From assembly GCF_040448685.1 (NCBI RefSeq), contig NZ_CP159290.1:868001-932000 (forward strand): a stretch of DNA of 64,000 bases, written 5' to 3'. Both the position numbers and the translations under genes were made by a program. Below the pieces are notes generated by a model. The model was not told the DNA's origin and made no database searches. It was given only the letters and a program-made list of their open reading frames with translations. The number at the start of each line of letters is the position of its first letter. Position 1 is the stretch's first letter. This stretch comes from Cellulosimicrobium sp. ES-005. Lineage in GTDB: Bacteria; Actinomycetota; Actinomycetes; Actinomycetales; Cellulomonadaceae. This document shows, in pieces, positions 21,349-41,000 of the stretch.

Positions 21349-21403
21349 CGAGCACGACATGGCGGTCGGTATGAGCGCCAGAACGACCGTCATGTCGTGT
21401 TCG
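21349..21403. repeat. Palindromic element, copy 1 (55 nt)
   Basis: Arms of 21 nt around a 13-nt loop; left arm starts CGAGCACGACATG, right arm ends CATGTCGTGTTCG. One terminal mismatch and two G-T pairs. It lies in the spacer between divergently transcribed genes (GH20 and LacI), so it cannot be a terminator for either. See copies at 28465 and 31820. Confidence 0.85.
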
Positions 21404-21445
21404 GCAGAGGCGGGGGGCGGCGCGGAGCCGCGCGAACCGTCTTGA

Positions 21446-21490
21446 CGCAAGCGTGCGTTCGGGTGGGCCGGAATCACGCAAGCGGCTTGC
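21446..21490. promoter_or_regulatory. Putative LacI operators: CGCAAGCG repeats and a 13-bp palindrome
   Basis: CGCAAGCG occurs at 21446-21453 and 21477-21484, 31 bp apart (about three helix turns). The second is part of a perfect palindrome GCAAGC-G-GCTTGC (21478-21490), 10 bp before the -10 box of the LacI gene. The same half-site recurs at 22736-22743 before the GH13 gene. Confidence 0.5.
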
Positions 21491-21499
21491 AATGGCGCG

Positions 21500-21505
21500 T
21501 ATAGT
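21500..21505 (+). promoter_or_regulatory. -10 box TATAGT, leaderless start of LacI gene
   Basis: TATAGT ends 7 nt before the ATG at 21513. It excludes the longer upstream reading frame beginning at 21453. Confidence 0.6.
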
Positions 21506-21512
21506 CGACGGC

Positions 21513-22544
21513 ATGTCGAGACGTCTGGCGGAGGTCGCCACCAAGGTCGGTGTCAGCGAGGCCACGGTGAGCCGCGTGCTCAACGGGAAGCCCGGCGTGT
21601 CGCAGGCGACGCGCGACGCGGTGCTCACCGCGCTCGACGTGCTCGGCTACGAGCGGCCGACCAAGCTGCGCGGCGAGCGCGGGCGCCTCGTGGGGCTCGT
21701 GCTCCCCGAGCTCGTCAACCCGATCTTCCCGGCGTTCGCCGAGGTCATCGGCGGCGCGCTCGCGCAGCAGGGCTTCACGCCGGTGCTGTGCACGCGGACC
21801 GCGGGCGGCGTGACGGAGGCCGAGTACATCGACCTGCTCCTGGGGCAGCACGTGTCGGGCGTGATCTTCGCGGGCGGCTTCTACGCCGAGCGCCTGGCCG
21901 ACCACGCGCACTTCCGCCGCCTCGAGAAGCTCGGCCTGCCGGTGGTGCTCATGAACGCCTCGATCGAGGACCTCGACTTCCCCCGCGTCTCGTGCGACGA
22001 CCTCGTCGCGATGAACCAGGCGCTCGGCCACGTGCTCTCGCTCGGCCACGAGAAGGTCGGCCTGCTGCTCGGGCCGGCGGACCACGTGCCGTCCGAGCGC
22101 AAGCTCGCCGCGGCGCAGGCGTTCGCCGAGCGGCAGGGCCACGTGCTCGACCCGGCGCTCGTCGTGCACAGCCAGTACTCGCTCGAGAGCGGGCAGGCCG
22201 CGGCGAACCGGCTGCTCGAGGCCGGCGCGACGGCGATCGTCTGCGCGAGCGACCCGCTCGCCCTGGGCGCCGTCCGCGCGGTGCGGCGTGCCGGTCTCGA
22301 CGTGCCGAGCGACGTCTCCGTCGTCGGCTACGACGACTCGAACCTCATGAACTCCACCGACCCGGCGCTGACGACGGTCCGCCAGCCCATCGAGCCGATG
22401 GGCCGGGCCGCCGTCGACCTGCTCGCGAGCATGATCGCCGGCGCCGACGTCTCGCGCGACGAGCTCCTGTTCGAGCCCGAGCTCGTCGTGCGCGGCTCGA
22501 CCGCCGCCGCGCACGCCGCCGGCCGCGAGGCCACCTCCTCCTAG
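21513..22544 (+). CDS. LacI family regulator, probably of the alpha-glucoside operon
   Basis: DNA-binding repressor of 343 residues: N-terminal HTH (LAEVATKVGVSEATVSRVLNGKPGVS), hinge helix, then a periplasmic-binding-protein-like core (LVGLVLPELVNPIFPAFAEVIGGAL, SVVGYDDSNLMNSTDPALTTVRQPIEPMGRAAVDLL). It is followed on the same strand by the GH13 alpha-glucosidase and a sugar ABC transporter, so maltose, trehalose or related alpha-glucosides are the likely effectors. Shared CGCAAGCG half-sites before this gene and before the GH13 gene support control of both. Target assignment is inference. Confidence 0.92.
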   Translation: MSRRLAEVATKVGVSEATVSRVLNGKPGVSQATRDAVLTALDVLGYERPTKLRGERGRLVGLVLPELVNPIFPAFAEVIGGALAQQGFTPVLCTRTAGGVTEAEYIDLLLGQHVSGVIFAGGFYAERLADHAHFRRLEKLGLPVVLMNASIEDLDFPRVSCDDLVAMNQALGHVLSLGHEKVGLLLGPADHVPSERKLAAAQAFAERQGHVLDPALVVHSQYSLESGQAAANRLLEAGATAIVCASDPLALGAVRAVRRAGLDVPSDVSVVGYDDSNLMNSTDPALTTVRQPIEPMGRAAVDLLASMIAGADVSRDELLFEPELVVRGSTAAAHAAGREATSS

Positions 22545-22628
22545 CCTGCACCCCACCCCTCCAGGGCCTCGGCCCGGCCGCTCGCGCGCCGGCCCGGGGC
22601 CCTCGTCGTCGTGCCCTCGCGTCGACGT

Positions 22629-22684
22629 CGAACCCGGGATCTCTCCTGACCCGTGCTCGTGCGTGGGGAGAGAGCCCGGGTTCG
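22629..22684. repeat. Palindromic element, copy 2 (56 nt)
   Basis: Arms of 18 nt around a 20-nt loop; left arm starts CGAACCCGGGATC, right arm ends GCCCGGGTTCG. The only arm mismatch is A-G at position 11 from the left end (left A opposite right G). It lies between the LacI stop and the GH13 promoter. Confidence 0.85.
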
Positions 22685-22731
22685 GCGCCGGCGGGACGCG
22701 TCGTCGGCGCGGGCGGGCTCCCGCGAGGAGG

Positions 22732-22784
22732 GCTTCGCAAGCGGGCGTAGGTCTCTCGACGTCGAGAGATAGCGTTTCGATAAC
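22732..22784. promoter_or_regulatory. Operator cluster upstream of the GH13 promoter
   Basis: Three symmetric sites: GCTT-CGC-AAGC (22732-22742, containing the CGCAAGCG half-site shared with the LacI promoter), a perfect 18-bp palindrome TCTCTCGACGTCGAGAGA (22752-22769), and CGTT-N5-AACG (22772-22784). All lie just upstream of the -35 box. Which protein binds each is unknown; one is probably the adjacent LacI. Confidence 0.5.
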
Positions 22785-22799
22785 GGTGCTGTCGGATTC

Positions 22800-22828
22800 T
22801 TGCGCGCATCCTGTCGTCTAGTTACAGT
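22800..22828 (+). promoter_or_regulatory. Sigma-70-type promoter of the alpha-glucoside operon
   Basis: -35 TTGCGC (22800-22805), 17-bp spacer, -10 TACAGT (22823-22828). The transcript would start near 22835, leaving a leader of about 135 nt before the GTG at 22970. The 425-bp spacer 22545-22969 otherwise holds only palindromic element copy 2 and the operators. Confidence 0.6.
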
Positions 22829-22969
22829 CGTCCACGACGGCGCGGTCGGGCACCCGGTGCACGACGGCCGTCCCGGGGACCCACCCGGTCGGAACGGACG
22901 CAGTGCGCAGCAGCAGGCGAGGCACGGACCCACGGACGTGCAGCCCACGAACTCACGGAAGAGGACGCG

Positions 22970-24730
22970 GTGAGCAACGATCACCCCCGAGTCGCCGACG
23001 GCGAACCCACCCCCGACGCGACCCTCGCGCAGGCGGTGCGGGAGCCGGGGGCGGCGTCGCCCGACTGGTGGCGCAGCGCCGTGATCTACCAGGTGTACGT
23101 GCGCAGCTTCGCGGACGGGAACGGCGACGGCACGGGCGACCTCGCGGGCGTTCGCCAGCACCTCACCTACCTGCGCGACCTCGGCGTCGACGCGATCTGG
23201 TTCACCCCCTGGTACGTGTCGCCGCTCGCCGACGGCGGCTACGACGTCGCGGACTACCGCGCGATCGACCCCCAGTTCGGATCGCTCGCCGAGGCGGAGC
23301 AGCTCATCGCGGAGGCGCGCGAGCTCGGCATCCGCACGATCATCGACGTCGTCCCCAACCACGTCTCGTCCGAGCACGAGTGGTTCAAGGCCGCCCTCGC
23401 CGCCGGCCCCGGGTCGCCCGAGCGCGAGCGCTTCTGGTTCCACCCGGGCAAGGGCGAGGACGGGTCCCAGATCCCGACGCGCTGGGTCTCGGAGTTCCAG
23501 GGCAGCACGTGGACGCGCACGACGAACCCCGACGGCACGCCCGGCGAGTGGTACCTGCACGTGTTCGCTCCCGAGCAGCCGGACCTCAACTGGAACCACC
23601 CCGACGTGCGCCGCGAGCACGAGGACATCCTGCGGTTCTGGTTCGACCGCGGCGCCGCGGGCATCCGCATCGACTCGGCGGCCCAGCTCGTCAAGGACCC
23701 GGCGCTGCCCGAGGTCCCGGCCCACCCCGGCCCGGGCGAGCACCCGCACGTCGACCGCGACGAGCTCCACGACATCTACCGCGGCTGGCGCGCCGTCGCG
23801 GACTCCTACGAGGAGCCCCGCGTGCTCGTGGGCGAGGTGTGGCTCGCGGACCGTGCCCGGTTCGCCCAGTACCTGCGCCCGGACGAGATGCACACGGCGT
23901 TCAACTTCGACTTCATGGCGCGCCCGTGGGACGCGAAGGCGCTGCGCGAGTCCGTGCAGACGACGCTCGACGCGCACGCCCCGGTCGCGGCGCCCGCGAC
24001 GTGGGTGCTCTCGAACCACGACGTCACGCGCCCGGTGACGCGGTACGGCCGCGAGGACAGCTCGTTCGCGTTCGCGACCAAGCGCTTCGGCACGCCGACG
24101 GACCTGGAGACCGGGCGCCGTCGGGCCCGCGCCGCCGCGCTGCTCTCCGCCGCGCTGCCCGGCTCGCTCTACCTCTACCAGGGCGACGAGCTGGGGCTTC
24201 CCGAGGTCGAGGACCTGCCGCTCGACGCGATCCAGGACCCCATGCACTTCCGCTCCGACGGCGTCGACCCCGGCCGCGACGGCTGCCGCGTCCCGCTCCC
24301 GTGGACGCGTGGCGGCACGAGCAACGGGTTCGGGCCCGACGGCGGCGCGCGGCCCTGGCTGCCCCAGCCCGCGGGCTGGGGGGAGCTCTCGGTCGAGGCG
24401 CAGGCCGACGACGAGACGTCGATGCTCGCGCTCTACCGCCGCGTCCTCGCGACGCGGCGCGCCGAGCCCGCGCTGCACGGCGAGGCGTTCCGCTGGCTCG
24501 ACTCCCTGGGAGGGGTCGCGCTCGGCGACGACGTGCTCGCGTTCGTCCGCGAGGACACCCGCGGCGACGACGACCGCGCGGTCACGTGCGTCGTCAACCT
24601 CGGGGCCGAGGACGTGCCGCTGCCCGCGGACGCCGAGGTCCTCCTCCACAGCGGCACCTCGCACGGGGCGGACGTGTCGGAGCCACCGACGCGCCTCGCC
24701 CCCGACACCGCGGTCTGGCTGCGCGCATGA
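22970..24730 (+). CDS. GH13 alpha-glucosidase (oligo-1,6/maltase type)
   Basis: Hydrolyses alpha-glucosides to glucose inside the cell. The 586-residue protein shows the GH13 conserved regions: DVVPNHVSSEH, GIRIDSAAQ (nucleophile Asp), VLVGEVWL (acid/base Glu) and WVLSNHDVTR. The QVYVRSFADGNGDGTGDLAG start and the absence of a signal peptide fit cytoplasmic alpha-glucosidases (GH13_30/31-like). A C-terminal beta domain ends the protein. The GTG follows GAGG. As the first gene of the transporter operon, it would process the imported sugar. Confidence 0.94.
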   Translation: MSNDHPRVADGEPTPDATLAQAVREPGAASPDWWRSAVIYQVYVRSFADGNGDGTGDLAGVRQHLTYLRDLGVDAIWFTPWYVSPLADGGYDVADYRAIDPQFGSLAEAEQLIAEARELGIRTIIDVVPNHVSSEHEWFKAALAAGPGSPERERFWFHPGKGEDGSQIPTRWVSEFQGSTWTRTTNPDGTPGEWYLHVFAPEQPDLNWNHPDVRREHEDILRFWFDRGAAGIRIDSAAQLVKDPALPEVPAHPGPGEHPHVDRDELHDIYRGWRAVADSYEEPRVLVGEVWLADRARFAQYLRPDEMHTAFNFDFMARPWDAKALRESVQTTLDAHAPVAAPATWVLSNHDVTRPVTRYGREDSSFAFATKRFGTPTDLETGRRRARAAALLSAALPGSLYLYQGDELGLPEVEDLPLDAIQDPMHFRSDGVDPGRDGCRVPLPWTRGGTSNGFGPDGGARPWLPQPAGWGELSVEAQADDETSMLALYRRVLATRRAEPALHGEAFRWLDSLGGVALGDDVLAFVREDTRGDDDRAVTCVVNLGAEDVPLPADAEVLLHSGTSHGADVSEPPTRLAPDTAVWLRA

Positions 24731-24853
24731 CACCGCGCACGGGCCGGCACGCGGCCTGACCGCCACCAGTCCCCGGGCCGCGAGCCGGTCGGCCCGGACA
24801 CCCAGCACCCACCCAGCACACCCAACCAGCACCACCGGAACACAGGAGTGACG

Positions 24854-26254
24854 ATGAAGTCCACACGTCAGGCGATCGCCTTCACCCTCGCGGGGGCGCT
24901 CGCGATCAGCACGCTCGCCGCGTGCTCGAGCGGCGGCTCGGGCAGCGACGACGAGAGCAGCGGCTCGGACGGCGACGGGAAGGTCACCCTCAAGGTGGTC
25001 TCCCTCCTCCCGGGCTCCGAGCAGGAGGCGATCGACGCCTTCAACGCGCAGGTCGAGGAGTTCGAGGCCGCGAACCCGGACATCGACATCGTGCCGGAGG
25101 AGTACGAGTGGAAGGCGACGACGTTCGCCCCCCAGCTCGCCGGCGGCACGCTGCCCGACGTCTTCGAGATCCCGTTCACCGACGCGAAGACGCTCGTCGA
25201 GAACGGCCAGCTCGCCGACCTCGACGAGCAGTTCCGCACCCTGCCCTACGCCGACAAGTTCAACCCGGCGATCATCGAGGCCGGGACGGGCGCCGACGGC
25301 CACGTCTACGCGATCCCCGCGAAGAACGTCTACGGCGTCGGCCTGCACTACAACCGCGCGCTCTTCGAGTCGGCCGGGCTCGACCCCGACCAGCCGCCGA
25401 CCACGTGGGACGAGGTCCGCGAGGACGCGAAGAAGATCGCGGACGCCAACCCCGGCGTCGCGGGCTACATGCAGATGTCGCAGAACAACACGGGCGGCTG
25501 GCAGCTCACGGTCAACACGTTCGCGCGCGGCGGCCGCACGCAGGAGGTCGCGGAGGACGGGACCGCCACCTCCACGCTCACCAACGACGGCACCAAGGAA
25601 GCGCTCGAGTGGCTCAAGGCCATGCGCTGGGAGGACAACTCCCTCGGGAGCAACTTCCTCCTCGACTGGGGCACCATGAACCAGGCGTTCGCCGCCGGCC
25701 AGGTCGCGATGTACACGTCGGGCTCCGACGTCTTCACGTCGCTCGTCCAGACGAACGCGGTCGACCCCGCCACCTACGGCCTCGCGGCGCTCCCGCTCGA
25801 GGGCGACGACGCGGGCGTCCTCACGGGCGGCACGCTCGCCGCGATGCCGGCCAACGTGGACGAGTCCAAGAAGGAGGCCGCCATCAAGTGGATCGACTTC
25901 TTCTACCTCGCCAAGCTCGTCGACGAGAAGCGCGCGGTCGCCGACGCCGAGACGCTCGTCGCGAACGACCAGCCCGTGGGCACCCCGGTCCTGCCGATGT
26001 TCTCCCAGGAGCAGTACGAGCAGAACCAGGAGTGGATCAAGGACTACATCAACGTCCCGCTCGACCAGATGACGAGCTACACGGACACGATGTTCGACCT
26101 GCCGCTCGTCGGTGAGCCGTCGCAGAAGACGCAGGAGATCTACGCGCTGCTCGACCCGGTCGTCCAGGCCGTCCTGACGGACGAGAACGCCGACGTGGAC
26201 GCGCTGCTGGAGCAGGCGAACACCGAGGCGCAGGCCCTGCTCGACCAGGGCTGA
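24854..26254 (+). CDS. Sugar ABC transporter substrate-binding lipoprotein
   Basis: Extracytoplasmic binding protein of 466 residues for the alpha-glucoside importer. The N-terminus has Lys/Arg, a hydrophobic helix and the lipobox LAAC (cysteine at about residue 24), then a Ser/Gly/Asp-rich linker. The mature part is family 1 (PLPGSEQEAIDAFNAQVEEFEAANPDIDI; FAAGQVAMYTSGS). The ATG at 24854, 5 nt after AGGAG, is preferred to the GTG two codons earlier, which overlaps the ribosome site. It is followed by strong hairpins before the permease genes. Confidence 0.94.
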   Translation: MKSTRQAIAFTLAGALAISTLAACSSGGSGSDDESSGSDGDGKVTLKVVSLLPGSEQEAIDAFNAQVEEFEAANPDIDIVPEEYEWKATTFAPQLAGGTLPDVFEIPFTDAKTLVENGQLADLDEQFRTLPYADKFNPAIIEAGTGADGHVYAIPAKNVYGVGLHYNRALFESAGLDPDQPPTTWDEVREDAKKIADANPGVAGYMQMSQNNTGGWQLTVNTFARGGRTQEVAEDGTATSTLTNDGTKEALEWLKAMRWEDNSLGSNFLLDWGTMNQAFAAGQVAMYTSGSDVFTSLVQTNAVDPATYGLAALPLEGDDAGVLTGGTLAAMPANVDESKKEAAIKWIDFFYLAKLVDEKRAVADAETLVANDQPVGTPVLPMFSQEQYEQNQEWIKDYINVPLDQMTSYTDTMFDLPLVGEPSQKTQEIYALLDPVVQAVLTDENADVDALLEQANTEAQALLDQG

Positions 26255-26300
26255 CGCCCCGCGGTCGCGCGGTCCGTACGGGCTGCGCGACCCGCAGACC

Positions 26301-26336
26301 CGGGTCGGCCGGCAGCGCCCCCTGCCGGCCGACCCG
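26301..26336 (+). terminator. Intercistronic hairpin after the binding-protein gene
   Basis: A perfect 15-bp stem (CGGGTCGGCCGGCAG and its complement) with a 6-nt loop. A second imperfect hairpin follows at 26347-26384 (arms GTGCCCGAC/GTCGGGCAC). In ABC importer operons such hairpins usually protect the binding-protein mRNA or partly terminate, giving more binding protein than permease. Confidence 0.7.
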
Positions 26337-26413
26337 AACCCCGCCGGTGCCCGACGGCGCGACGCACCTCGCGTCGTCGGGCACCTCCCCACCGCACCGA
26401 AGGACGTTCGCCC

Positions 26414-27379
26414 GTGACCGCCACCACCGCCCCGCCGCGACGGGGACCCGCCTCCCACGCGCGGGCCGACCGCGACGGCCGACGCCGCAGCCCCGTGACG
26501 TGGTTCCGTGGCGGCGGCCTGAGCAACCTCGTCTTCCTGCTGCCGCTCATCCTGATCTTCGGCGTCTTCTCGTGGTTCCCCATCGTGCGCGCGGTGATCA
26601 TGAGCTTCCAGGAGACGAACCTCGTGAGCGACCCGACGTTCGTCGGGCTCGACAACTTCCGGCAGGTGCTGAACGACCCGCTCCTGTGGAAGGCCGTGAA
26701 GAACACGCTGTACTTCGCGTTCCTCGCGCTCCTGTTCGGGTACCCGATCCCGCTGATCGCGGCCGTCCTCATGCGCGAGGTCCGCCGGGCGCGCGGGCTG
26801 TACTCCGCGCTCGCCTACCTGCCGGTCGTCGTGCCGCCGGTCGTCGCCGTGCTGCTGTGGAAGTTCTTCTACAACGGCAGCCCGACGGGCGTGTTCAACA
26901 CGATCCTCGGCTGGGTCGGCCTCGGCCCGTACCCGTGGCTCCAGGACGCCTCGACGGCCATGCCGTCGCTCGTGCTCGCCGCCACGTGGGCCGGCGCGGG
27001 AGGGACGATCATCATCTACCTCGCCGCCCTGACGAGCGTGCCGCCCGAGCTCTACGACGCCTCCGAGGTGGACGGCGCGGGGCTGTGGCGCAAGATCTGG
27101 CACGTCACGCTCCCGGCCCTGCGCGGCGTCCTGTTCATCACGCTGATCCTCCAGGTCATCGGGACCGCGCAGGTGTTCCTCGAGCCCTACCTGTTCACGG
27201 GCGGCGGGCCGAACAACGCGACCCTGACGATCCTGCTGCTCATCTACCGCTACGCCTTCCAGAACAGCCTCGGCGGCGACTACGGGGCGGCGACCGCGCT
27301 GTCGATCATGCTCGCGGCCGTCCTCGCGGTCTTCTCGATCCTCTACTTCCGGCTCACCCGGTCCTGGAGCACGTCATGA
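26414..27379 (+). CDS. Sugar ABC transporter permease, MalF/UgpA type
   Basis: Inner-membrane subunit of 321 residues with a basic N-terminus and six predicted helices. The EAA-loop motif for contact with the ATPase is EVDGAGLWRKIWHVTLPALRG (about residues 217-237). The fragment ALVTSVPPELYDASEVDGA-like region is standard for this family. No ATPase gene is in the cluster; a shared MsiK/MalK-type ATPase elsewhere probably energises it, as in streptomycetes. The TGA overlaps the ATG of the next permease (ATGA). Confidence 0.93.
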   Translation: MTATTAPPRRGPASHARADRDGRRRSPVTWFRGGGLSNLVFLLPLILIFGVFSWFPIVRAVIMSFQETNLVSDPTFVGLDNFRQVLNDPLLWKAVKNTLYFAFLALLFGYPIPLIAAVLMREVRRARGLYSALAYLPVVVPPVVAVLLWKFFYNGSPTGVFNTILGWVGLGPYPWLQDASTAMPSLVLAATWAGAGGTIIIYLAALTSVPPELYDASEVDGAGLWRKIWHVTLPALRGVLFITLILQVIGTAQVFLEPYLFTGGGPNNATLTILLLIYRYAFQNSLGGDYGAATALSIMLAAVLAVFSILYFRLTRSWSTS

Positions 27380-28449: not shown

Positions 28450-29596
28450 CCTTCGGCCCGCTGCCGAACACGACTTCGGTGTCGTCGTCCGAGGGATAAC
28501 GACACCGAAGTCGTTCTCGACCGAGAGCAGGGTCGTCGGGGGAGCGGGGCCCGACGGCGGGTTGCCACCAGCGGTTGTGGACCTCCTCGGCCCAGCCGAC
28601 GAGGCCGTCGAACCGCACCGGCTCCGGTGCGGCGTCGCCGTCGGTCCCCGCGGCGGGTGGCGTGAACGTGCCGGACCAGTGGCCGAAGCACTGGTCGGTC
28701 GACGACGACACGACGCCGAGGTGCGTCCGCGTGACCTTCGTGTGGAAGGGCTCGAACGTCGCGTCGAGCCCGCCGCCGGTGACCCGCCACGGCCGGTGCG
28801 GGTCGGCGAGGTCGTAGTCCCACGCGAGCTCGTCGGGGAGGTGGTGGATCCGCCCGTCGAGGGAGATCGCGTTCTCGGTCGAGCCCGTGCCGACCGTCCA
28901 CCGTCCGCCCACCTGGATCCCGACGACCCGCCCGTGGCTCTCGCCCGAGCCCGCGCCCCAGTTCCACCGGACGTCGTAGGGCCAGCGCCCGCGGCCGTGG
29001 TCGAGGACGGCCCACGACGACCCGGCGGGAACGTCGACCGTCCGTCCGTCGACCCACAGCGTGCCGTGCGCCGGGCGGGCGACGTCCTTGACCGTGTACT
29101 GGAAGCGCGAGTCGCTCCACGGCACGACGACGGCGAGCCGCTCGTGCCCGGGCGGCAGCTCGGCGACGACGTCGAACGAGACGTCGCGGGTCCGCGCCCG
29201 CAGGCGCGTCCCGCCGTCGACCTCGTCGAGGTCGATCGCGAGGTTCTTCGCCCGTGCGCGGGCGGGACCGTCGCCGAGCGAGCCGGGCAGCTCGACGCCG
29301 CGCGCGGGCACGACGGTCGCGTCCGCGCCCCACGTGCGACCCGACTCCCGGTCGAGCACCCACACCTCGTGCACGGCCGCGTAGTCGAGGGACGACACCG
29401 TCAGCGCGAGGACGTGGGTCGGGGTGACGACGCCCCAGTACTCCCAGCGCTTGTTCCGGCCCGCATGGCGGCGGCCGTCCCGCGCGACGCCGGACGTGTT
29501 GACGAGCGGCTGGCGCGCCCAGCCGATCGAGCGGCGGTCGAGCAGGCCGTCGGGCAGGGTGAGCGGCACGCGCTCGGTGATCTCCGGGAGCGGCAC
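28439..29596 (-). CDS. DUF2804 domain-containing protein
   Basis: Function unknown; 385 residues, soluble, no signal peptide. Family features seen: LLDRRSIGWARQPLVNTS near the start, NKRWEYWGVVTPTHVLALTVSSLDY, WNWGAGSGESHGRVVGIQVGGRWT and FGHWSGTF near the end. The GTG at 29596 follows a strong GGAGG sequence. The last 26 or so codons (from about residue 360) are encoded by palindromic element copy 3 and the sequence beyond it, so the native C-terminus was probably replaced or extended. It runs 11 nt into the permease gene. Confidence 0.85.
   Translation of the reverse strand: MPLPEITERVPLTLPDGLLDRRSIGWARQPLVNTSGVARDGRRHAGRNKRWEYWGVVTPTHVLALTVSSLDYAAVHEVWVLDRESGRTWGADATVVPARGVELPGSLGDGPARARAKNLAIDLDEVDGGTRLRARTRDVSFDVVAELPPGHERLAVVVPWSDSRFQYTVKDVARPAHGTLWVDGRTVDVPAGSSWAVLDHGRGRWPYDVRWNWGAGSGESHGRVVGIQVGGRWTVGTGSTENAISLDGRIHHLPDELAWDYDLADPHRPWRVTGGGLDATFEPFHTKVTRTHLGVVSSSTDQCFGHWSGTFTPPAAGTDGDAAPEPVRFDGLVGWAEEVHNRWWQPAVGPRSPDDPALGRERLRCRYPSDDDTEVVFGSGPKVSP
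28465..28519. repeat. Palindromic element, copy 3 (55 nt)
   Basis: Arms of 21 nt with a 13-nt loop; left arm starts CGAACACGACTTCGG, right arm ends CCGAAGTCGTTCTCG. Two mismatches lie at positions 4-5. The stem centre (CTTCGGTG) differs from copies 1 and 4 with both arms changed together. It lies inside the DUF2804 reading frame at a convergent junction. Confidence 0.85.
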
Positions 29597-29787
29597 CGCT
29601 CCACCTCCACGTGGTCCGGCTCGGGCGGTCCTGCGCGGCGGGCGACGGTGCCCGGTGCCCGGCCCGAGGAGCGAGCGAGGCCGAGTCTAGGGGGCCGGGC
29701 GAGGTGACCGGACGAGGTGACACTCTGTCCCGTCAATGTCACGTCCCTCCGGTCCGCTTCCGGGCGGGCGGGGGTCGGAGCAGGTGC

Positions 29788-29793
29788 CATGAT
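29788..29793 (+). promoter_or_regulatory. Possible -10 box CATGAT deciding the cpfC start
   Basis: CATGAT ends 7 nt before the ATG at 29801. It overlaps the upstream in-frame ATG at 29789, which is therefore less likely to be used. Confidence 0.4.
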
Positions 29794-31819: not shown

Positions 31820-31874
31820 CGAGCACGACATGAGGGTCGTTATCCCGTGGATGACGACCCTCATGTCGTGCTCG
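31820..31874. repeat. Palindromic element, copy 4 (55 nt, perfect arms)
   Basis: Two 21-nt arms are exact reverse complements around a 13-nt loop; left arm starts CGAGCACGACATGAGGG. It lies between the convergent chdC and M48 peptidase genes and could also act as a terminator there. Confidence 0.9.
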
Positions 31875-31929
31875 ACGGCGCGTAGTGTCGTTCTCGGCGT
31901 GGCCGCGGGGCGCAGGTCGAACCTTTGGG

Positions 31930-33807
31930 TCAGCCCGCGGGGACGGTGTTCGGCTCGCCCTCGCGGACGTACGGCGCGACGTGCGCGACGAGCGCCTCGT
32001 CGCTGTCCTTGGTGAGCCGCTCGCCCGACCACGTCTCGTGGAGCGTGAGGGTCGTGCCGTCGTGCAGCGCGAGGTCGACGCGCGCGGGCGTGACCTTGCG
32101 GATCGCGGCCGCGGCGATCTGCTCGTACGGCACGTACCGGTACCGCGCGGCGAGGTCGGCGACGGGCGCCGAGCGCAGGAGCTCCACGAGGCGTGCCTTG
32201 CCGCCCTCCGTCTTCTTGGGGCAGGGCGCCAGGATCAGACCTACGTCCAGCACCAGGACGTCGTGGTACGTCCCGTCCACCTTGACGTTCGCGAGTCCGC
32301 CGACGACGTCGCCGCCGTGCGCGGTCGCCTGCGCGGTCTGCTGGACCGCGCCCGCGACGTCGATGCCGAGGGCGTCGAGCCGGGCGCGGGCCTCCGCGGT
32401 GGTCGCGGGGTCGGCCGCGAGGCGCGCGACCTCCGCCAGGTCCAGGACGGTGCCGTCGGGTGTCTCGAGCGTCGCCGGTCCCGTCCACGACGCGCGCCAC
32501 CGGGCCGCGCCGGACCGGACGGCCGCCGCCGCGAGGGCCGAGGAGATCGCCCCCGTGATCGCGTCCCGGGCCTCCTCGGCGGGGGCGCCGGGGACGAGGT
32601 CGCGCGCGATCGCGTCGAGGCGGCCGGTGCCCAGCAGGTCGAGCAGGGTCGCCAGGTCACCCTGCGGGCGACCGGCCGCGCGACCCACCGCGCGGTAGAG
32701 CGTGTCCGCGGTGCGCTGGTCGTGGATCGGCATGGCCGCCGCGACGAGGGCGTCCCACGGGAGCTGCGCGCGCGTCCCGAACGCGACCTCCTCGACCGCG
32801 ACGCGCTCGGCCCACGTCGGGAAGCCCGGGACGAGGGCGGTGGCGCGCCGCTCGTCCGTGGCGACCGTGCCGCCGTCGGGCATGGTGTCCATCGCGGCGA
32901 CGCGCCGCGCGATCGACGGGTGCGTGTCCCACGCGGACTGCTCGGCGGGCGCGTCGTCGGACCGGAGCTCGGCGAGGTCGCCGGCCCGGCCGCGCAGGAG
33001 CTCGTCGAAACCGCCGAAGACGCCCGCCGGTGTCGGGGCGAGGCCGTGCTCCCAGCCGAGCCCGACGTACTGGCTGGTGTAGAAGCCCCACGCGGCGTCG
33101 ATCACCGGGACCTCGCGCAGCGCCGCCTGGGCGGTCGCGCGGCCCGCGACGCGCACGGACAGCTCGTCGGCCTCGAGCTCCTGGCGGCGGCTGACCGCTG
33201 CCGACACGAGGACGTAGAGCTTCGCGTACTGCTTGAGCAGCCAGCCGACGACGTTCCCCTGGAGCTGCCCGACCGTCGCCATGATCGCCTCACGGCCCCG
33301 GTAGGCGAGCGGGCCGAGGCGCGTGTGCGAGCGGGAGTAGTGGCCGAGCTCGTGCGCGAGGACCGAGCGGAGCTGCGCGGCGGTCAGGCCCTGCAGCAGC
33401 GGGACGCCCAGGTACAGGCGGCGCGTCCCGCCGACGAGACCGAGCAGGCGCGTGTCCTCGCTGACGGCGGCGTTGACGTCGGCGACGAGCCGGATCTCGT
33501 CGGGGGTGCGCGTGTCCGCGACCTGCGCGAGCTCGCGGACGGCGGCCCAGAGCTCGGGCGCATCGCGCTCGGCGAGCGGCACCCCGCCCGGCCCCTGCTT
33601 CTCCGCCCTGGCGACGCGCACGAGCGCGACGACGAGGCCTGCCGCGACGACGATCGTGAAGAACCCGAGCTTCGCGGCACCACCGCTCGCGTGCTCCGAG
33701 AACGCCCACACGGTCGCCGCGCCGAGGCCGACGACGGCGCCGAGCGCGAGGACGTAGAACCCGACGAGGAGGAGGACCGACAGCGCGGCGCGCAGGGTCG
33801 TGGTCAT
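31930..33807 (-). CDS. M48 family membrane metallopeptidase
   Basis: Zinc endopeptidase of the HtpX/Ste24 family, likely membrane-protein quality control. The 625-residue protein has two N-terminal helices (about 8-35 and 48-68), the zinc motif VLAHELGHYSRSH (about residue 170) and the third ligand Glu in SRRQELEADELSV, followed by WDTHPSIARRVAAM as in other M48 proteins. The last 300 residues form a large soluble extension of unknown function (with APCPKKTEGGKARLVELLRS). The ATG at 33807 is chosen because it directly precedes the first helix. Confidence 0.9.
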   Translation of the reverse strand: MTTTLRAALSVLLLVGFYVLALGAVVGLGAATVWAFSEHASGGAAKLGFFTIVVAAGLVVALVRVARAEKQGPGGVPLAERDAPELWAAVRELAQVADTRTPDEIRLVADVNAAVSEDTRLLGLVGGTRRLYLGVPLLQGLTAAQLRSVLAHELGHYSRSHTRLGPLAYRGREAIMATVGQLQGNVVGWLLKQYAKLYVLVSAAVSRRQELEADELSVRVAGRATAQAALREVPVIDAAWGFYTSQYVGLGWEHGLAPTPAGVFGGFDELLRGRAGDLAELRSDDAPAEQSAWDTHPSIARRVAAMDTMPDGGTVATDERRATALVPGFPTWAERVAVEEVAFGTRAQLPWDALVAAAMPIHDQRTADTLYRAVGRAAGRPQGDLATLLDLLGTGRLDAIARDLVPGAPAEEARDAITGAISSALAAAAVRSGAARWRASWTGPATLETPDGTVLDLAEVARLAADPATTAEARARLDALGIDVAGAVQQTAQATAHGGDVVGGLANVKVDGTYHDVLVLDVGLILAPCPKKTEGGKARLVELLRSAPVADLAARYRYVPYEQIAAAAIRKVTPARVDLALHDGTTLTLHETWSGERLTKDSDEALVAHVAPYVREGEPNTVPAG

Positions 33808-33945
33808 GGGCGTGCCTCTCACGATGCGCCGCACCCGCGCGGCGGTCTGGCGCCGGAGCATAGTGGCCCGTGTGCCCGGGGCACCAGTTCCGTCCGCCGG
33901 CCCCTCCCCGGATGCTCAGCATGCTGATCGATGCGACGGTGGAGC

Positions 33946-34776: not shown

Positions 34777-34784
34777 TCACCCGC

Positions 34785-34840
34785 CGAGCACGGGATCCGC
34801 GACCGGATCGAGCCCAGGACGGTCGCGGAGCCCGTGCTCG
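34785..34840. repeat. Palindromic element, copy 5 (56 nt)
   Basis: Arms of 20 nt with a 16-nt loop; left arm starts CGAGCACGGGATC, right arm ends GCCCGTGCTCG. The only mismatch is again the left A at position 11 (opposite G). It lies between the convergent TspO-like and glutamate dehydrogenase genes. Confidence 0.88.
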
Positions 34841-34860
34841 GCGGGGCCGAGCGTCGCGGG

Positions 34861-36189
34861 TCAGGGGTAGAGGCCGCGGATCTGGTGCGCCTCCGCCACA
34901 CGCTGGACGCCGATGACGAGCGCGGCGTCCCGCAGGCTCAGCTCCTCGCGGCGTGCGAGGGTCGCGACCTCCTCGTACGCGTGGAGCATGCGGTGCTCGA
35001 GCTTCTCGCCGATCTCCTCCGCGGTCCACCAGTACGCCTGGTTGGCCTGCACCCACTCGAAGTAGGACACGACGACGCCGCCCGCGTTCGCGAGCACGTC
35101 CGGCACGACCGTCACGCCGTTCTTGGTGAGGACGCGGTCGCCCTCCGCGGTCGTCGGACCGTTCGCGCCCTCGACGACCCACCGGGCGCGCACGGTGCGC
35201 GCGGTGTCACCGTCGAGCACGCCCTCGACCGCGGCCGGGACGAGCACGTCGACGTCGAGCGCGAGCAGCGCGTCGTTGTCGACCGGGTCGGCGCGGTCGA
35301 ACCCCACCACGCTGCCGGTCGCGGCGACGTGCTCGAGCAGCCCGCGCACGTCCAGCCCGTCCGGGTCGTGCACGCCCCCGTACTGGTCGGACACCGCGAC
35401 GACGCGCGCCCCGCGGGCCGCGAAGATCGCGGCGGCGTGCGACCCGACCTTGCCGAAGCCCTGGATCGCGACGGTCACGTCGGACAGCGGCACGCCCGCC
35501 TCGTCGAGCGCCGCGGCGGTGACGTGCACGACGCCCGCGCTGGTCGCCGTCGTGCGGCCGAGCGACCCGCCCACGGTGATCGGCTTGCCGGTCACGACGG
35601 CCGGGATCGTGTAGCCCTGGTTCACCGAGTAGGTGTCCATGACCCAGGCCATGGTCTGCTCGCTCGTGCCCATGTCGGGCGCCATGATGTCCCGCTCCGG
35701 GCCGATGACCGGCATGATCTCCGACGTGTAGCGGCGCGTGACGCGCTCGAGCTCGGCCTCGGAGTAGCAGCGCGGGTCGATCGCGACGCCGCCCTTCGCC
35801 CCGCCGTACGGCAGGTCGACGAGGGCGCACTTCCACGTCATCCACATGGCGAGCGCGCGCACCTCGTCGATGTCGACGCTCGGGGAGTAGCGCAGCCCGC
35901 CCTTGCCGGGGCCGCGCGAGACGTTGTGCTGCACGCGGTAGCCGTGGAAGAGGACGGTACGGCCGTCGTCGCGCCGCAGCGGGACGGCGACGTTCACCTC
36001 GCGCCGCGGCGTCGCGAGCATCTCGTGCAGACCCTCGTCGTAGCCGAGGAACCCGACCGCGCCGGCGAGCTGCGCGTGCGCGGTGTCGAGGGCGGACGCG
36101 AGGGCGTGCTGCGGGGTCGTGCGGGGGGTGGGGTCGTGCGGGGTGGGTTCGCCGCTCGTGAGGGTGGGCGGCACGGACGTCGTCGTCAC
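34861..36189 (-). CDS. Glu/Leu/Phe/Val dehydrogenase (glutamate dehydrogenase)
   Basis: Reversible oxidative deamination of glutamate to 2-oxoglutarate. The 442-residue protein has HNVSRGPGKGGLRYSPSVD, the catalytic lysine in VDLPYGGAKGGVAIDP, the Rossmann motif AIQGFGKVGSHAA and AAVEGVLDGDTA. Length and the PGKGGLRY motif favour the NAD-type hexameric GDH; coenzyme specificity is not certain. The GTG follows GGAGGAACC. It flanks PutA by 2 kb, which would supply glutamate from proline; a joint proline-to-2-oxoglutarate route is inference. Confidence 0.93.
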   Translation of the reverse strand: MTTTSVPPTLTSGEPTPHDPTPRTTPQHALASALDTAHAQLAGAVGFLGYDEGLHEMLATPRREVNVAVPLRRDDGRTVLFHGYRVQHNVSRGPGKGGLRYSPSVDIDEVRALAMWMTWKCALVDLPYGGAKGGVAIDPRCYSEAELERVTRRYTSEIMPVIGPERDIMAPDMGTSEQTMAWVMDTYSVNQGYTIPAVVTGKPITVGGSLGRTTATSAGVVHVTAAALDEAGVPLSDVTVAIQGFGKVGSHAAAIFAARGARVVAVSDQYGGVHDPDGLDVRGLLEHVAATGSVVGFDRADPVDNDALLALDVDVLVPAAVEGVLDGDTARTVRARWVVEGANGPTTAEGDRVLTKNGVTVVPDVLANAGGVVVSYFEWVQANQAYWWTAEEIGEKLEHRMLHAYEEVATLARREELSLRDAALVIGVQRVAEAHQIRGLYP

Positions 36190-36275
36190 GGTTCCTCCGG
36201 TTCGAGGTTCTCCTCGGTGCCGCGGGGGTGTGCGGCACCGAGGGTCACGCTACCCCCGGCGCGGGCGCTCGCCGC

Positions 36276-37079
36276 TCACGCGCCCCGGTGGTGGCCCAGC
36301 GCGTCGATCGCCGCGAGCTCGTCCGCCGTGAGCCTGAACCCGGTCACCTGGAAGTTCGCCTCGATGCGCTCCGGCGTCACCGACTTGGGGATGACGACGA
36401 ACCCGTGGTCGAGGTGCCAGCGCAGCACGACCTGCGTGGGCGTGACGCCGTGCGCCGCGGCCACCTCCGCGAGGACCGGCGCGTCGAGGTCGGTGCGCTT
36501 GAACGGGCTGTACCCCTCGAGCACGACGCCGCGCTGCGCGAGCTCGTGCGCGAGGCGGTGGTCGTAGTCGGCGGGGCTCCAGGGGATCTGGTCGACGGCG
36601 GGTGCCTCACCGACCTGCTCCGAGACGACGTCGACCTGCTCGACCGAGTAGTTGCTCACCCCGATCGATCGGGCCTTGCCCTCGTTCCGCAGCTCGACGA
36701 ACCGCTCCCACACCCATGGCGACGCCTCGCCCGCCGGCGGCCAGTGGATGAGCCACAGGTCCACGTGGTCCGTGCCGAGGTCGCGCAGCGACGCCTCGAG
36801 CGTCTCGCGCTCGCGCCCCGCGGCGTCCGGCGGGAGCTTGGTCGTGACGAACACGTCGTCGCGGTCCACGGCCGAGTCGGCGAGCGCGCGCCCGACCTGT
36901 GCCTCGTTGCCGTAGCCCGTCGCGGTGTCGACGTGCCGGTAGCCCACGTCGAGCGCGTGGCGCACGGCGCGGTACGCGTCGTCGCCCTCGGACTGCCACG
37001 TCCCGAGCCCGAGCAGCGGCATCGCCCCGCCGGGCAGGTCGACGGTCGGGACGGCGTGCGAGGAGTCTGCGGAGGTCAT
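36276..37079 (-). CDS. Aldo/keto reductase (2,5-diketo-gluconate reductase type)
   Basis: NADPH-dependent reductase of 267 residues with the full tetrad: Asp and Tyr in HVDTATGYGNE, Lys in FVTTKLPP, His in LWLIHWPPA; the coenzyme-binding VIPKSVTPERIEANFQV is present near the C-terminus. Substrate not predictable. The ATG at 37079 is preferred because it directly precedes the VDLPGGAMPLLGLGTW strand; the longer frame is read-through. It is separated from the upstream AraC gene (same strand) by palindromic element copy 6. Confidence 0.92.
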   Translation of the reverse strand: MTSADSSHAVPTVDLPGGAMPLLGLGTWQSEGDDAYRAVRHALDVGYRHVDTATGYGNEAQVGRALADSAVDRDDVFVTTKLPPDAAGRERETLEASLRDLGTDHVDLWLIHWPPAGEASPWVWERFVELRNEGKARSIGVSNYSVEQVDVVSEQVGEAPAVDQIPWSPADYDHRLAHELAQRGVVLEGYSPFKRTDLDAPVLAEVAAAHGVTPTQVVLRWHLDHGFVVIPKSVTPERIEANFQVTGFRLTADELAAIDALGHHRGA

Positions 37080-37141
37080 GCCGCCAGTCTCCGTGCCCGA
37101 CGCCGCCGCGCGCCACCGCGCGACCCCCACCCGGTCCTCGC

Positions 37142-37197
37142 CGAGCCCTGGATCTCTCCCCAGGACTGGCAGACGGTGAGGAGAGAACCAGGGTTCG
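37142..37197. repeat. Palindromic element, copy 6 (56 nt)
   Basis: Arms of 18 nt with a 20-nt loop; left arm starts CGAGCCCTGGATC, right arm ends CCAGGGTTCG. Compared with copy 2, CCCGGG has become CCCTGG on one arm and CCAGGG on the other, a compensated change. Position 11 is once more mismatched (A-A). It lies in a tandem spacer (AraC to aldo/keto reductase). Confidence 0.87.
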
Positions 37198-37215
37198 GCG
37201 GCAGGGCGCGGGCGG

Positions 37216-37965
37216 TCAGCGACGCGAGCGGCGGCGGTACTGGGCCGGGGTCTCGCCTGCCAGGCGCGCGAACGTGCGGGTGAACGACGGCTGGTCGTAG
37301 AAGCCGCTCTCGGCCGCGACCTCACCGATCGAGACCGTGGTCCCCGCGAGCAGGCGCGTCGCGTGGTCGACCCGGGTGCGCAGCACGAGCTGGCGCGGCG
37401 TCACGCCGTAGACGCGTCGCACCCGCCGGTCGAGCACCGCGGGCGTGCACCCGGCCGCCTCGGCGAGCCGCGCCGTCGTCCAGCGCGCCCCGAGGTCCGC
37501 CTCGACCGCGGCGACGAGCGCGGCGAGGGAGCCCATCGTCGCGTCGTCCGCCGCGCCCGCGCGCAGGTCGTGCGAGACCGAGACGATCCCCACGAGGTGA
37601 CCGGCGTCGTCGTGCACGGGGAGCTTGGACGTGAGGAACCAGCCCGACGTGCCGCCGAGCCGCCGGATGCGCTCGAGCTCGCCGCGCAGCGCGCGCCCGC
37701 GCAGCACCTCGGCGTCCTGCTGCTCGTAGCGCTCGGCGAGCTGCGCGACGAACAGGTCGCGCGCGCGTCGGCCCAGCACCGCGCGGCGCGAGCGCTCGTT
37801 CGTCCGCGCGACGAACACCGGGTTGACCGCGACGTACCGGCCCGTGACGTCCTTGGCGCAGAACATCGTGTCCGGCAGCTCGTCCATGAGCGCGACCATG
37901 GCGGGGCTGAGCGCTCGGAGCAGCGCCGCGCCCTCGGGCCACGGTTTGTCGCGGACGGGTGCCAT
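37216..37965 (-). CDS. AraC family regulator with N-terminal PAS-like domain
   Basis: Transcription regulator of 249 residues. An N-terminal PAS-fold (about 20-140: DELPDTMFCAKDVTGRYVAVNPVFVART ... GWFLTSKLPVHDDAGHLVGIVSVSHDL) precedes two HTH units (TTARLAEAAGCTPAVLDRRVRRVYGVTPRQLVLRTRVDHA; VSIGEVAAESGFYDQPSFTRTFARLAGETPAQYRR). It is divergent from putA with only 53 bp between the two starts, so control of putA is plausible. A possible -10, TACGAT, lies at 37976-37981 on its strand. Confidence 0.9.
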   Translation of the reverse strand: MAPVRDKPWPEGAALLRALSPAMVALMDELPDTMFCAKDVTGRYVAVNPVFVARTNERSRRAVLGRRARDLFVAQLAERYEQQDAEVLRGRALRGELERIRRLGGTSGWFLTSKLPVHDDAGHLVGIVSVSHDLRAGAADDATMGSLAALVAAVEADLGARWTTARLAEAAGCTPAVLDRRVRRVYGVTPRQLVLRTRVDHATRLLAGTTVSIGEVAAESGFYDQPSFTRTFARLAGETPAQYRRRSRR

Positions 37966-38018
37966 GTCGCCCCGGATCGTACAAGACGAGTCACCGCGAC
38001 CCGAGGCACCCTGGAGGG

Positions 38019-41000
38019 ATGAGCAACGACGCGCCTGCCCGGCCGCTCCCCACCCCCGGAGCCGTCGGCGACACGACCCTCACCTCCCCGGACGACCTCG
38101 TCGAGGAGGCCGTCGCGCTGGCCCGCCGCTGGCTCGCCGCGAGCGAGGGAGCGGGCGACGCGCGCGCCCGCCGGACCGCCGAGCGGCTCGGTGCGCTCGT
38201 CTCCGACCCCGCGGGCCTCGAGCTCGCGGTCCGGTTCGTCGACGACGTCGCGCGCCCCCAGGACGTGCACGTCGCCGCGCGGGCGCTGGCCCGCCTCGGC
38301 GAGCTCGCGGGCAGCGCGGGGTCGTTCCTCGGGCCGGTCGACCGGTCCCTCCTGCGCGTCGGGGCGGGCGTCGCGCCGGTGCTGCCGCGCGTCGTCGTCC
38401 CGGCCGCGCGGGTGCGCCTGCGCCAGCTCGTGGGCCACCTCGTGGCCGACGCCGGCCGCGGCCTCGGCCCGCACCTCGCCCGGACCCGCGCGGAGGGCTA
38501 CGCGCTCAACGTCAACCTCCTCGGCGAGGCCGTGCTCGGCGAGGCCGAGGCGGACGCGCGCCTCGAGCGCACGCTCGCGCTCGTGCGGCGCCCCGACGTC
38601 GACTACGTGTCGGTCAAGGTGTCGTCCGTCGCGTCGCAGCTCGTCACGTGGGACCTCGACGGGTCGTGCGCGCGTGTCGTCGAGCGGCTGCTGCCGCTGT
38701 ACCGGGCGGCGCGCGACCACGGCGTCTTCCTCAACCTCGACATGGAGGAGTACAAGGACCTCGCGCTCACGACCGCGGTCTTCCGCGAGATCCTCGCGCA
38801 CGACGACCTGCATGACCTCGAGGCCGGGATCGTGCTCCAGGCGTACCTGCCCGACGCGCTCGGCGCGCTCGACGGGCTCACCCGGTTCGCGACCGAGCGC
38901 GTCGCCGCCAGCGGCGCGCCGATCAAGGTCCGCCTCGTCAAGGGCGCGAACCTCGCGATGGAGGCCGTCGAGGCCGAGCTCCACGGCTGGCCGCAGGCGC
39001 CGTACCCGACCAAGCCCGACGTCGACGCGAACTACGTCCGCCTGCTCGACCACGCGCTGCGCGAGCCCCGCACGGACGCGGTCCGGATCGGCGTCGCGAG
39101 CCACAACCTGTTCCACGTCGCGCTCGCCGTGCTCCTCGGCCGCGCCCGCGGCGTGAGCCACGCGCTCGACGTCGAGATGCTCCAGGGCATGGCCCCCGGC
39201 GAGGCGCGCGCCGTGCGCGACGAGGTCGCGGCCGACCGCGTCGAGTCCGGCCCGCACGCGGGGCATGGTGGGCGCGTCGTGCTGTACACGCCCGTCGTGC
39301 GCGACGAGGACTTCGACGTCGCGATCTCCTACCTCGTGCGCCGCCTCGAGGAGAACGCCGCCGAGCAGAACTTCCTCCACGCCATGTTCGCGCCCGACGG
39401 GTCGCCTGCGGGCAGCCCCATGGAGCGCCAGGAGGCCGCGTTCCGCGCGTCCGTGCGCCACGGGGTCCACTACGCGGAGGCCGACGTGACGCCGCGCCGC
39501 CGCCCGCGTGCGGACGCCCCGACCGCCGTCGGTCCGCACCAGCCCGTCGAACCCGGGACTACCGGCCACGACGGCGCCGAACCCACCCGCAACCCCGGGT
39601 TCGGCGGGGGCGGCTTCGCGAACGCCCCCGACACCGACCCCGCCGTCGCCGCCTCGCGCGACTGGGCCCGCCACGTCACCGGGACCGGCTCCGGGTACGT
39701 CCCCGTCCGCACGCCCGAGCTCACCACGACCGCCCAGGTGGACGACGCCGTCGCGACCGCCGTGCGCGCGACCGCCGCGTGGTCGCAGGTCGCCCCGGCG
39801 GCCCGCGCCGCCGCCCTGCGCGCCGTCGCCCGGCGCCTGGAGGAGGCGCGCACCGACCTCGTCGCCGCGATGGTGCACGAGCCCGGCAAGACCGTCGCCG
39901 AGGCCGACCCCGAGGTGAGCGAGGCCGTCGACTTCGCGAACTACTACGCGCGGTCCGCCGAGGACCTGGACCACGTGCCCGGCGCCCGCTTCACGCCCGA
40001 CGGCGTCACGCTCGTCACCCCGCCCTGGAACTTCCCCGTCGCGATCCCCGTCGGCGGGGTGCTCGCGGCGCTCGCGGCCGGGTCGGCGGTGCTCGCCAAG
40101 CCCGCTCCGCCCACGCCGCGCTGCCTCGAGGTCGCCGTCGAGGCAATCCACGCGGGCCTGCGCGACGCCGTCGCAGCCGCGCCGGGGGACTTCGCCGGGC
40201 TGGACGCAGGCTCGGTCACCGAGGTCGTGCAGTACGTCCGCGTTCCCGACGACGAGCTCGGCACGCGCCTCGTCACGCACGACGACGTCGCACGCGTCGT
40301 GCTCACGGGCTCGATCGAGACCGCGCAGCTCTTCGCGCGGTGGAAGCCGTCGCGCCCGGTCCTCGCCGAGACGTCGGGCAAGAACGCGCTCGTCGTCACG
40401 CCGTCGGCGGACCTCGACCTCGCGGTCGCGGACCTCGTGCGGTCGGCGTTCGGGCACGCGGGGCAGAAGTGCTCGGCCGCGTCGCTCGCGATCCTCGTCG
40501 GCTCGGCGGGCGACCCGCGGACCGAGACGGGGCGCCGCGTGCGGCGCCAGCTCGTGGACGCGGTGCGCTCGCTCGCCGTCGGTCCGGCGACCGACGTCGC
40601 GACGACCGTGGGCCCGCTCACCGAGCCCGCGTCGGGCAAGCTCTTGCACGCGCTGACGACGCTGGAGCCGGGGGAGTCCTGGCTCGTGCGGCCGCGGCTG
40701 CTGGACGGCGGCCCCGACCTGGAGGGCCGCCTCTGGACGCCGGGTCTCAAGGAGGGTGTCGCGCCCGGCTCGCCGTTCCACCTCACCGAGTACTTCGGGC
40801 CGGTCCTCGGGATCATGACGGCCGCGACCCTCGACGAGGCGATCGCGCTGCAGAACGCGGTCCCGTTCGGTCTCACGGGCGGCATCCACAGCCTCGACGA
40901 CGCCGAGGTCGAGCGCTGGCTCGACGCCGTCCAGGTGGGCAACGCCTACGTCAACCGGCACATCACCGGCGCGATCGTGCAGCGGCAGTCGTTCGGCGGC

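Follow-up and report, generated by a model that had tools for sequence, protein, structure and literature searches.

Repetitive extragenic palindromic (REP) sequences of the GTAG type are high-copy palindromes located mainly in convergent and unidirectional spacers near the 3' ends of genes, with some intragenic copies and with homodimer and heterodimer arrangements (PMC3733652, Di Nocera et al. 2013). REPs with a CGTC tag, which include Rickettsia repeats, are likewise dispersed, lack a dedicated transposase and lie in part within genes (PMC3733652). For actinobacteria, untagged REP-like families have been noted in Mycobacterium tuberculosis (as in other bacteria), REPs have been counted by RepRanger in three Actinomycetota genomes, and stem-loop families are listed for Mycobacterium and Corynebacterium (PMC3733652, PMC12306157, PMC2267715). 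Moreover, template switching can homogenise the arms of inverted repeats and invert the spacers between them (PMC8604942, PMC8794818). The present analysis concerns seven palindromic hairpins in a 64,000-nucleotide (nt) stretch of DNA, hereafter the window, which covers positions 868001-932000 of the single-contig genome (4,855,880 bases) of Cellulosimicrobium sp. ES-005. These hairpins belong to a genus-wide REP-like superfamily without a known mobiliser and with in-place turnover, which resembles REPs in its placement but lacks the REP tag, and for which no Y1 transposase was found in the genus.

A preliminary description, made from the letters of the window, had listed seven palindromes of 55 or 56 nt that begin with CGARC and end with GTTCG, GCTCG or CTCG, and had interpreted them as one dispersed family with compensated stems. 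All seven are present with these positions, lengths and ends (Table 1), and their dispersal is borne out by many more copies genome-wide. The single family, on the other hand, is rejected in favour of at least three related ones, termed A, B and E, all of which feature GYCGAR...YTCGRC ends and a nearly fixed length. Pattern A (CGARCACGAC...GTCGTGYTCG, 55 nt) yields 63 forward matches in the ES-005 genome at up to three mismatches, with 0 for the reversed control; a looser version yields 69, compared with 70 for another genome of this species and 6-63 for the 15 further genus genomes (controls 0). Pattern B (CGARCNCNGGATC..., 56 nt) matches 80 times on the forward and 76 times on the reverse strand, versus 2 and 3 for the control. 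Pattern E (GYCGAGCAGGNG..., 56 nt) matches 23 times versus 0; 18 of these places were judged genuine by eye, those dropped being the window element at 34785 and four that resemble coding chance. Elsewhere in the genus the E pattern returns 1 to 45 matches per genome, chance included and some at control level, and its matches in genome G004 show the half-site version CATGCGG. Across all family searches the reversed-pattern controls amount to 0-3 per genome and strand.

Covariance models extend this range. At E<=0.001 the A model finds matches in 69 of 149 genomes, all 16 of the genus among them, the remainder often showing one or a few weak ones (up to the best 35 per genome being considered); clear 55-nt copies, several with the tail half-site described below, occur in genomes of two other genera (g11 and g23), the latter with its own half-site version. 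The B model, trained with the copy at 39548 included, matches 16 of 16 genus genomes and two others, from two further genera, among 59 genomes searched. Some copies of A are close to one another, 61 pairs within ES-005 having at most 6 differences over the 55 positions. A known Rfam RNA was rejected, as a scan of the whole window at E<=1 gave a single sub-threshold miRNA match (14163-14241) and none at an element. Among the copies listed, A (2 of 51) and B (4 of 55) are rare and E (8 of 18) is common between 0.95 and 2.5 Mb of the genome (Fisher p=7e-5), a region that sits on one chromosome arm relative to dnaA.

The geometry of the elements is tight. When hairpins with GYCGAR/YTCGRC ends were scanned over 45-69 nt, a length of 55 or 56 nt was found for 129 of 270 in ES-005 and for 140 of 308 from relatives, versus 3 of 68 and 7 of 71 in the respective Markov controls. 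Within the ES-005 stretches all but one of the 55 A copies measure 55 nt and all but one of the 55 B copies 56 nt, a tally that is biased because the stretches were chosen by fixed-length patterns, whereas that of the relatives is not length-selected. In addition, a third half-site, the tail, lies 22 nt outside one end in 47 of 54 A copies (at most 3 of 12 mismatches), while the opposite side shows at least six mismatches in 53 of 54. Only the offset of 22 recurs in a scan to 150 nt (30 copies at no more than one mismatch; 1-2 at other offsets), and hairpin plus tail extend over about 81 nt. The same 22-nt architecture is found in 11 of 17 E copies (at most 3 of 10 mismatches) and also, built on another half-site sequence, in copies from other genera, but in none of the 37 B copies checked. 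Arrays of the half-site GAGGTAGAG with about 21-nt spacing, in direct orientation on one flank of a central palindrome and inverted on the opposite flank, occur at L062:4079-4177 and L108:4860-4958, and their geometry recalls the A/E tail.

Within the arms, base 4 (CGARC/GYTCG) is a variable R or Y position and shows no compensation. In the A seed alignment changes affecting both arms occur among bases 11, 13-16 and 22-26, and the compensation of the mid-stem is clear. This pattern is what one would predict for ends recognised as half-sites around an interior maintained as a stem. The covariation score exceeds all 500 shuffles for the A as well as the B seed alignment; other measures do not rise above them, namely the A pairs with both sides changed (a value reached in 186 of 500 shuffles) and the B cells with such a change (reached in 38 of 500). 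The arm-coordinated changes claimed at the outset are supported, with the exception of arm base 4.

Placement relative to genes was determined in 60 stretches picked for fixed-length pattern matches plus the window, together 586,579 bases of ES-005, with genes called by a codon-based caller made for this analysis and with hairpins classed neither A nor B, E copies included, kept out of the counts. The 110 A and B copies comprise 37 in convergent, 36 in tandem and 14 in divergent spacers, 22 that overlap called genes and one at an edge. For the 87 copies in typed spacers this corresponds to 6.2, 1.3 and 0.7 copies per kb of non-element spacer, values that are inflated by the choice of stretches holding matches, so that only the ratios between spacer types are meaningful. 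In 29 of the 36 tandem copies the upstream stop codon lies at most 39 nt away. The placement thus hugs gene 3' ends, the same profile as reported for REPs, though 22 of the 110 copies intrude into called genes. The likeness to Rickettsia elements inserted in genes, which the preliminary description had suggested, applies mainly to B (19 of 55 copies) and hardly to A (3 of 55). A tandem pair of B elements, 1 nt apart, lies within one called gene at L100:3001-3113.

The comparison in kind with REPs, drawn at the outset, is supported as far as dispersal and 3'-end placement are concerned. High copy number, the types of spacer occupied, closeness to 3' ends, intragenic copies and homo- and heterodimer arrangements are shared with the GTAG REPs that are accompanied by a REP-associated tyrosine transposase (RAYT). 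The differences are a size of 55-81 nt with a 26-27 bp stem, compared with 20-40 bp there, the single-sided half-site at 22 nt, the near-fixed length and the failure to find a Y1 gene in the genus; furthermore, no GTAG tag stands at the foot of the hairpin, where flanks and ends read GY/CGARC ... GYTCG/RC. Integron attC sites are single-strand hairpins with a poorly conserved interior and conserved inverted ends with the core RYYYAAC/GTTRRRY. The elements described here resemble them in hairpin fold, variable interior, inverted conserved ends and similar minimum size, but their ends read GYCGARC/GYTCGRC; the assignment was rejected because the fourth core base is G/C and not Y/R, GAGC/GCTC ends being common. 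With the CGTC-tagged REPs the elements share dispersal, the apparent lack of a dedicated transposase and some copies in genes, but they differ in size and carry no CGTC (TGTC/CCTC) tag beside an 8-9 bp stem, the stem here reaching up to 26 bp in a 55-nt hairpin with CGARC ends. The untagged actinobacterial REP-like and stem-loop families are similar by description, the level at which they were compared. Quasipalindrome correction by template switching (PMC8604942, PMC8794818) offers a parallel in arm homogenisation and spacer inversion; it is, however, a mutational mechanism and not a family of elements, and dispersed copies here also seem to exchange arms. The term "Actinobacteria" is absent from the main text of PMC3733652 and neither "cellulo" nor "micrococc" is found in PMC12306157. 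In the literature consulted, no published account of the A, B and E families, of their geometry or of palindromes of the genus Cellulosimicrobium was found, which agrees with the view of the preliminary description that no family with this layout had been described.

Orthologous spacers were compared in stretches of 16 further genomes of the genus around three anchors, and many of these sites hold members of the families and not unrelated hairpins. With the further copies found genome-wide, neither of the outcomes that the preliminary description had named as refuting it was observed. At each of three spacers (L052) an element is present in ES-005 and 9 of 11 further genomes, and at the spacer between tspO and the glutamate dehydrogenase gene (gdh) in ES-005 and 7 of 16. 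For instance, at spacer L097_15121 the element starts 3 nt past the same stop codon in ES-005, G149, G005, G007, G009, G004 and G006, and at least three unrelated types of interior are found among these seven genomes; to judge from the aligned sequences, interiors at this site are swapped in situ. The comparison extends over 428 genome pairs at 15 sites, the pairs not being independent and the second genome of the species being among them. The 160 pairs that are similar display 167 changes on both arms versus 33 expected, next to 314 single changes. In 156 of the 428 pairs neither mid-arm is more than 50% identical, although Watson-Crick pairing is kept at a mean of 9.5 of the 12 mid positions. 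In G002 and G011 a tail-less E-like element occupies four sites at which most other genomes carry A; hairpin and tail were replaced jointly, and one of the new elements is displaced within a remodelled spacer. C-rich tracts stand beside the E-like elements at two of the sites (L124 and L157 in G002; L125 and L155 in G011) and are possibly repair scars. Near-clean empty sites for the 34785 element, reading ..CGC/GC.., were seen in G001 and G004 among the listed part of 454 alignments, mostly noise. Inverted ends, as in a miniature inverted-repeat transposable element, are present; a clear target duplication is not evident in the alignments of these two genomes.

How the two arms are kept coordinated was addressed by the mismatches and by recent changes of the stems. 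In 70 tandem elements (36 from ES-005, 34 from relatives) G-U mismatches on the transcribed strand do not significantly outnumber A-C ones (50 vs 41, p=0.40), and transversion mismatches amount to 91. A 795-bp duplication of 97.4% identity (L069:2936-3730 and L083:2936-3728) contains A copies with identical arms and an exactly inverted loop. Likewise, at L097_12501 the loop of ES-005 and G149 is exactly inverted compared with G006 (two pairs, one event), one arm being changed as well. The 7-nt mid-arms of 54 A copies are identical in 32, differ once in 10 and more often in 12, and 7 of these 12 asymmetric elements join two arms known from other copies, as only about 6% of random double changes would. 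Taken together, the missing G-U bias, the chimeric arms and the loop inversion favour copying and exchange of arms at the DNA level over compensation at the RNA level; they bear the marks of one arm being copied onto the other, of flipped loops and of sequence traded among copies. The preliminary description had proposed selection for structure; selection on an RNA structure explains the coordination of the arms poorly, since the transcribed strand shows no G-U excess.

The REP-type Y1 transposase gene, which the preliminary description had suggested looking for, was not found: PF01797 at E<=0.001 has no match in any of the 16 genus genomes (other transposase families were not searched), matches 2 of all 59 genomes searched and is detected in 5 of 14 control genomes. 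A RAYT-driven REP was rejected on this ground. The exact A and B patterns have no matches in viral contigs and one A copy with its tail has none in plasmids or phages, and a phage or plasmid origin was rejected at the sensitivity used. Tail orientation is plus in 20 and minus in 26 of 46 oriented copies; by replication arm the ratios, counted by hand, are 15:15 and 5:11, with the origin placed at dnaA (2.825 Mb), the GC skew being too weak, and the terminus taken as opposite. As the tail thus shows no clear replication-strand bias, lagging-strand insertion of the Y1 type was rejected.

The observed combination of dispersed families, near-fixed length, sites shared across the genus, changes on both arms and placement near 3' ends is best explained by non-autonomous REP-like palindromic DNA elements, the 3'-end hairpins of which are homogenised by template switching and ectopic exchange, a reading to which we give about an even chance. 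An ancient spread would have been driven by an enzyme acting in trans, for which the ends and the half-site at 22 nt served as recognition sites and which has since been lost or overlooked, and copies at gene ends may have been retained since a strong hairpin constitutes a putative bidirectional transcript end. Complementarity of the arms would be maintained chiefly in DNA, where template switching, or the copying of one arm onto the other within an extruded hairpin, could rewrite an arm from its partner and flip the loop, while ectopic exchange with other copies would bring in whole arms or interiors and leave the conserved ends and the length intact. A further reading, which we regard as rather improbable, holds the sites to be fixed sockets with exchangeable hairpin cassettes, where a dedicated or co-opted activity reading the GYCGAR ends (in A and E also the half-site at 22 nt) keeps the 55/56-nt length and swaps interiors in place, so that whole groups of sites would change together in a given lineage. 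The view that the stems are selected in RNA as bidirectional terminators at gene ends, with compensation through G-U intermediates, fits the strong 3'-end preference, with convergent spacers densest, and the unrelated strong hairpins seen where the element is missing (G002 and G011 at L097_15121; G010 and Oerskovia at tspO/gdh). It is nevertheless unlikely, as G-U mismatches are not in excess and are outnumbered by transversions, at one site the entire interior has been substituted among related genomes, fixed ends, fixed length and tail would not be needed, and more than a third of the B copies overlap called genes.

A still-active mobile element with an enzyme that strongly prefers gene ends, the exchanged interiors being re-insertions at hot spots, would agree with the A copy number of 6 to 70 within the genus, the wide range of E-pattern counts (chance included), the E-like type at the four G002/G011 sites, the many closely similar A pairs and the half-sites that change in step between genera. 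Against it stand the missing Y1 gene, within the limits of that search, the lack of matches in viral contigs, phages and plasmids at the sensitivity used, the unrelated interiors that share one start position in seven genomes at L097_15121, the absence of an evident target duplication at the examined empty sites and the lack of a clear strand bias of the tail, so that we rate this account, too, as unlikely. Sites for a DNA-binding protein, such as a nucleoid, partition or recombination factor, with three half-sites in a 22-nt plus 55/56-nt geometry and an incidental palindrome, would account for ends conserved as independent half-sites (uncompensated R/Y position), for the 22-nt offset and for the patchy spread along the chromosome, E being concentrated in a region poor in A and B; this is a highly improbable reading, because the pairing of the variable middle and the innermost stem and the concentration at gene 3' ends are left unexplained and B lacks the third half-site. 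Finally, the GC-rich genome is rich in other hairpins, but unrelated look-alikes have next to no chance of being the answer, given dozens of copies versus reversed controls of 0-3, a genome search that refutes the idea, and conservation at orthologous sites.

Homogenisation of REP-like DNA elements is itself opposed by several observations. No mobiliser was found in the search for Y1 genes. No T-run is seen 3' of the hairpins at the level of the downstream consensus, which is G-rich and lacks the hairpin-plus-T-run layout of an intrinsic terminator, and the persistence of a B element inside putA together with the overlap of 19 of 55 B copies with called genes fits poorly with a strong terminator. 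Of 96 loop-informative pairs, 82 keep the orientation and 14 are nearer to the inverted state, only two of them (one event) exactly. Interior mismatches read on the tail-5' strand comprise more A-C than G-U (43:20 in ES-005, 33:15 in relatives), an asymmetry that DNA-level maintenance leaves unexplained, and ends of 10-13 bp are short for exchange by ordinary homologous recombination. Moreover, the joint replacement of tail and hairpin and the displaced element in G002 and G011 also fit re-insertion. A recent clean insertion was not observed, and the examined empty sites are compatible with either loss or gain. Among 18 element-less spacers at three convergent-type sites only 7 give a hairpin signal (z <= -2.9), three of these (L097_716) being a hairpin that ES-005 carries beside its element and hence no replacement; two convergent gene pairs (G015, G013) have no spacer whatever.

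Within the window, the elements at 21349, 28465 and 31820 are assigned to A, those at 22629, 37142 and 39548 to B, and the one at 34785, which fits the E pattern with two mismatches, is E-like. Six of the seven fold largely paired (-34.4 to -50.9 kcal/mol), the stem at 31820 over its full length (-50.9 kcal/mol). The exception at 39548 retains only the outer 10 bp (-22.4 kcal/mol) and is regarded as a decayed B member because better-preserved B elements lie in the same part of putA, a hypervariable linker, in nine congener genomes. It is one of two copies that had been described as coding. The other, at 28465, spans about residues 359-377 of 385 in the DUF2804 gene, where the protein match stops before residue 359 in 8 of 10 matching congener stretches; in effect it would sit at a convergent gene end. 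The M48 peptidase next to the 31820 element is matched best by Cellulosimicrobium cellulans PW (100%, best segment), followed by other Cellulosimicrobium and Oerskovia, and in G007, G006, G010, G002 and G011 the element 3' of hemQ adjoins tspO with no M48 peptidase gene (window 31930-33861) between them. Another repeated hairpin of 42 nt, GAGAAGTGGCCC...GGGCCACTTCTC, is present in four copies in the ES-005 stretches.

Table 1. Elements of the window, their tail half-sites and copies of the 42-nt hairpin (window coordinates unless a stretch is named).
Feature	Position	Strand	Context and remarks
Family E hairpin, 56 nt	2285..2340	+	divergent spacer, outside the span of the seven
Tail half-site of 2285 element	2261..2270	+	22 nt beyond left end, 0/10 mismatches
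Family A hairpin, 55 nt	21349..21403	+	divergent spacer GH20 gene / LacI-type regulator; oriented by degenerate left tail
Degenerate tail half-site of 21349 element	21325..21336	+	3/12 mismatches, 22 nt outside
Family B hairpin, 56 nt	22629..22684		tandem spacer LacI-type regulator / alpha-amylase; site shared with 8 other genomes
Family A hairpin, 55 nt	28465..28519		C-terminal part of DUF2804 gene
Family A hairpin, 55 nt	31820..31874	-	convergent spacer hemQ (chlorite dismutase-family) / M48 peptidase, 11 nt past stop
Tail (third half-site) of 31820 element	31887..31898	-	direct repeat of right-hand arm, offset 22 nt, 1/12 mismatch
E-like (E') hairpin, 56 nt	34785..34840		convergent spacer TspO-like gene / glutamate dehydrogenase, 8 nt past stop
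Family B hairpin, 56 nt	37142..37197		tandem spacer AraC-type regulator / aldo-keto reductase
Decayed family B element	39548..39603		putA linker between proline dehydrogenase and aldehyde dehydrogenase domains
42-nt hairpin	6301-6342		
42-nt hairpin	L056:3464-3505		
42-nt hairpin	L071:490-531		
42-nt hairpin	L100:181-222		

The families thus constitute an actinobacterial REP-like superfamily without a recognised mobiliser and with a tight geometry of a 55/56-nt hairpin and a third half-site at 22 nt. Since 17 genomes of the genus let shared sites be followed, selection in RNA and template switching in DNA become testable alternatives for the origin of compensated stems, and DNA is favoured by the loop inversion in a recent duplication as well as by the missing G-U bias. 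Should these ends be read by an enzyme, it would represent a new kind of small-repeat mobiliser.

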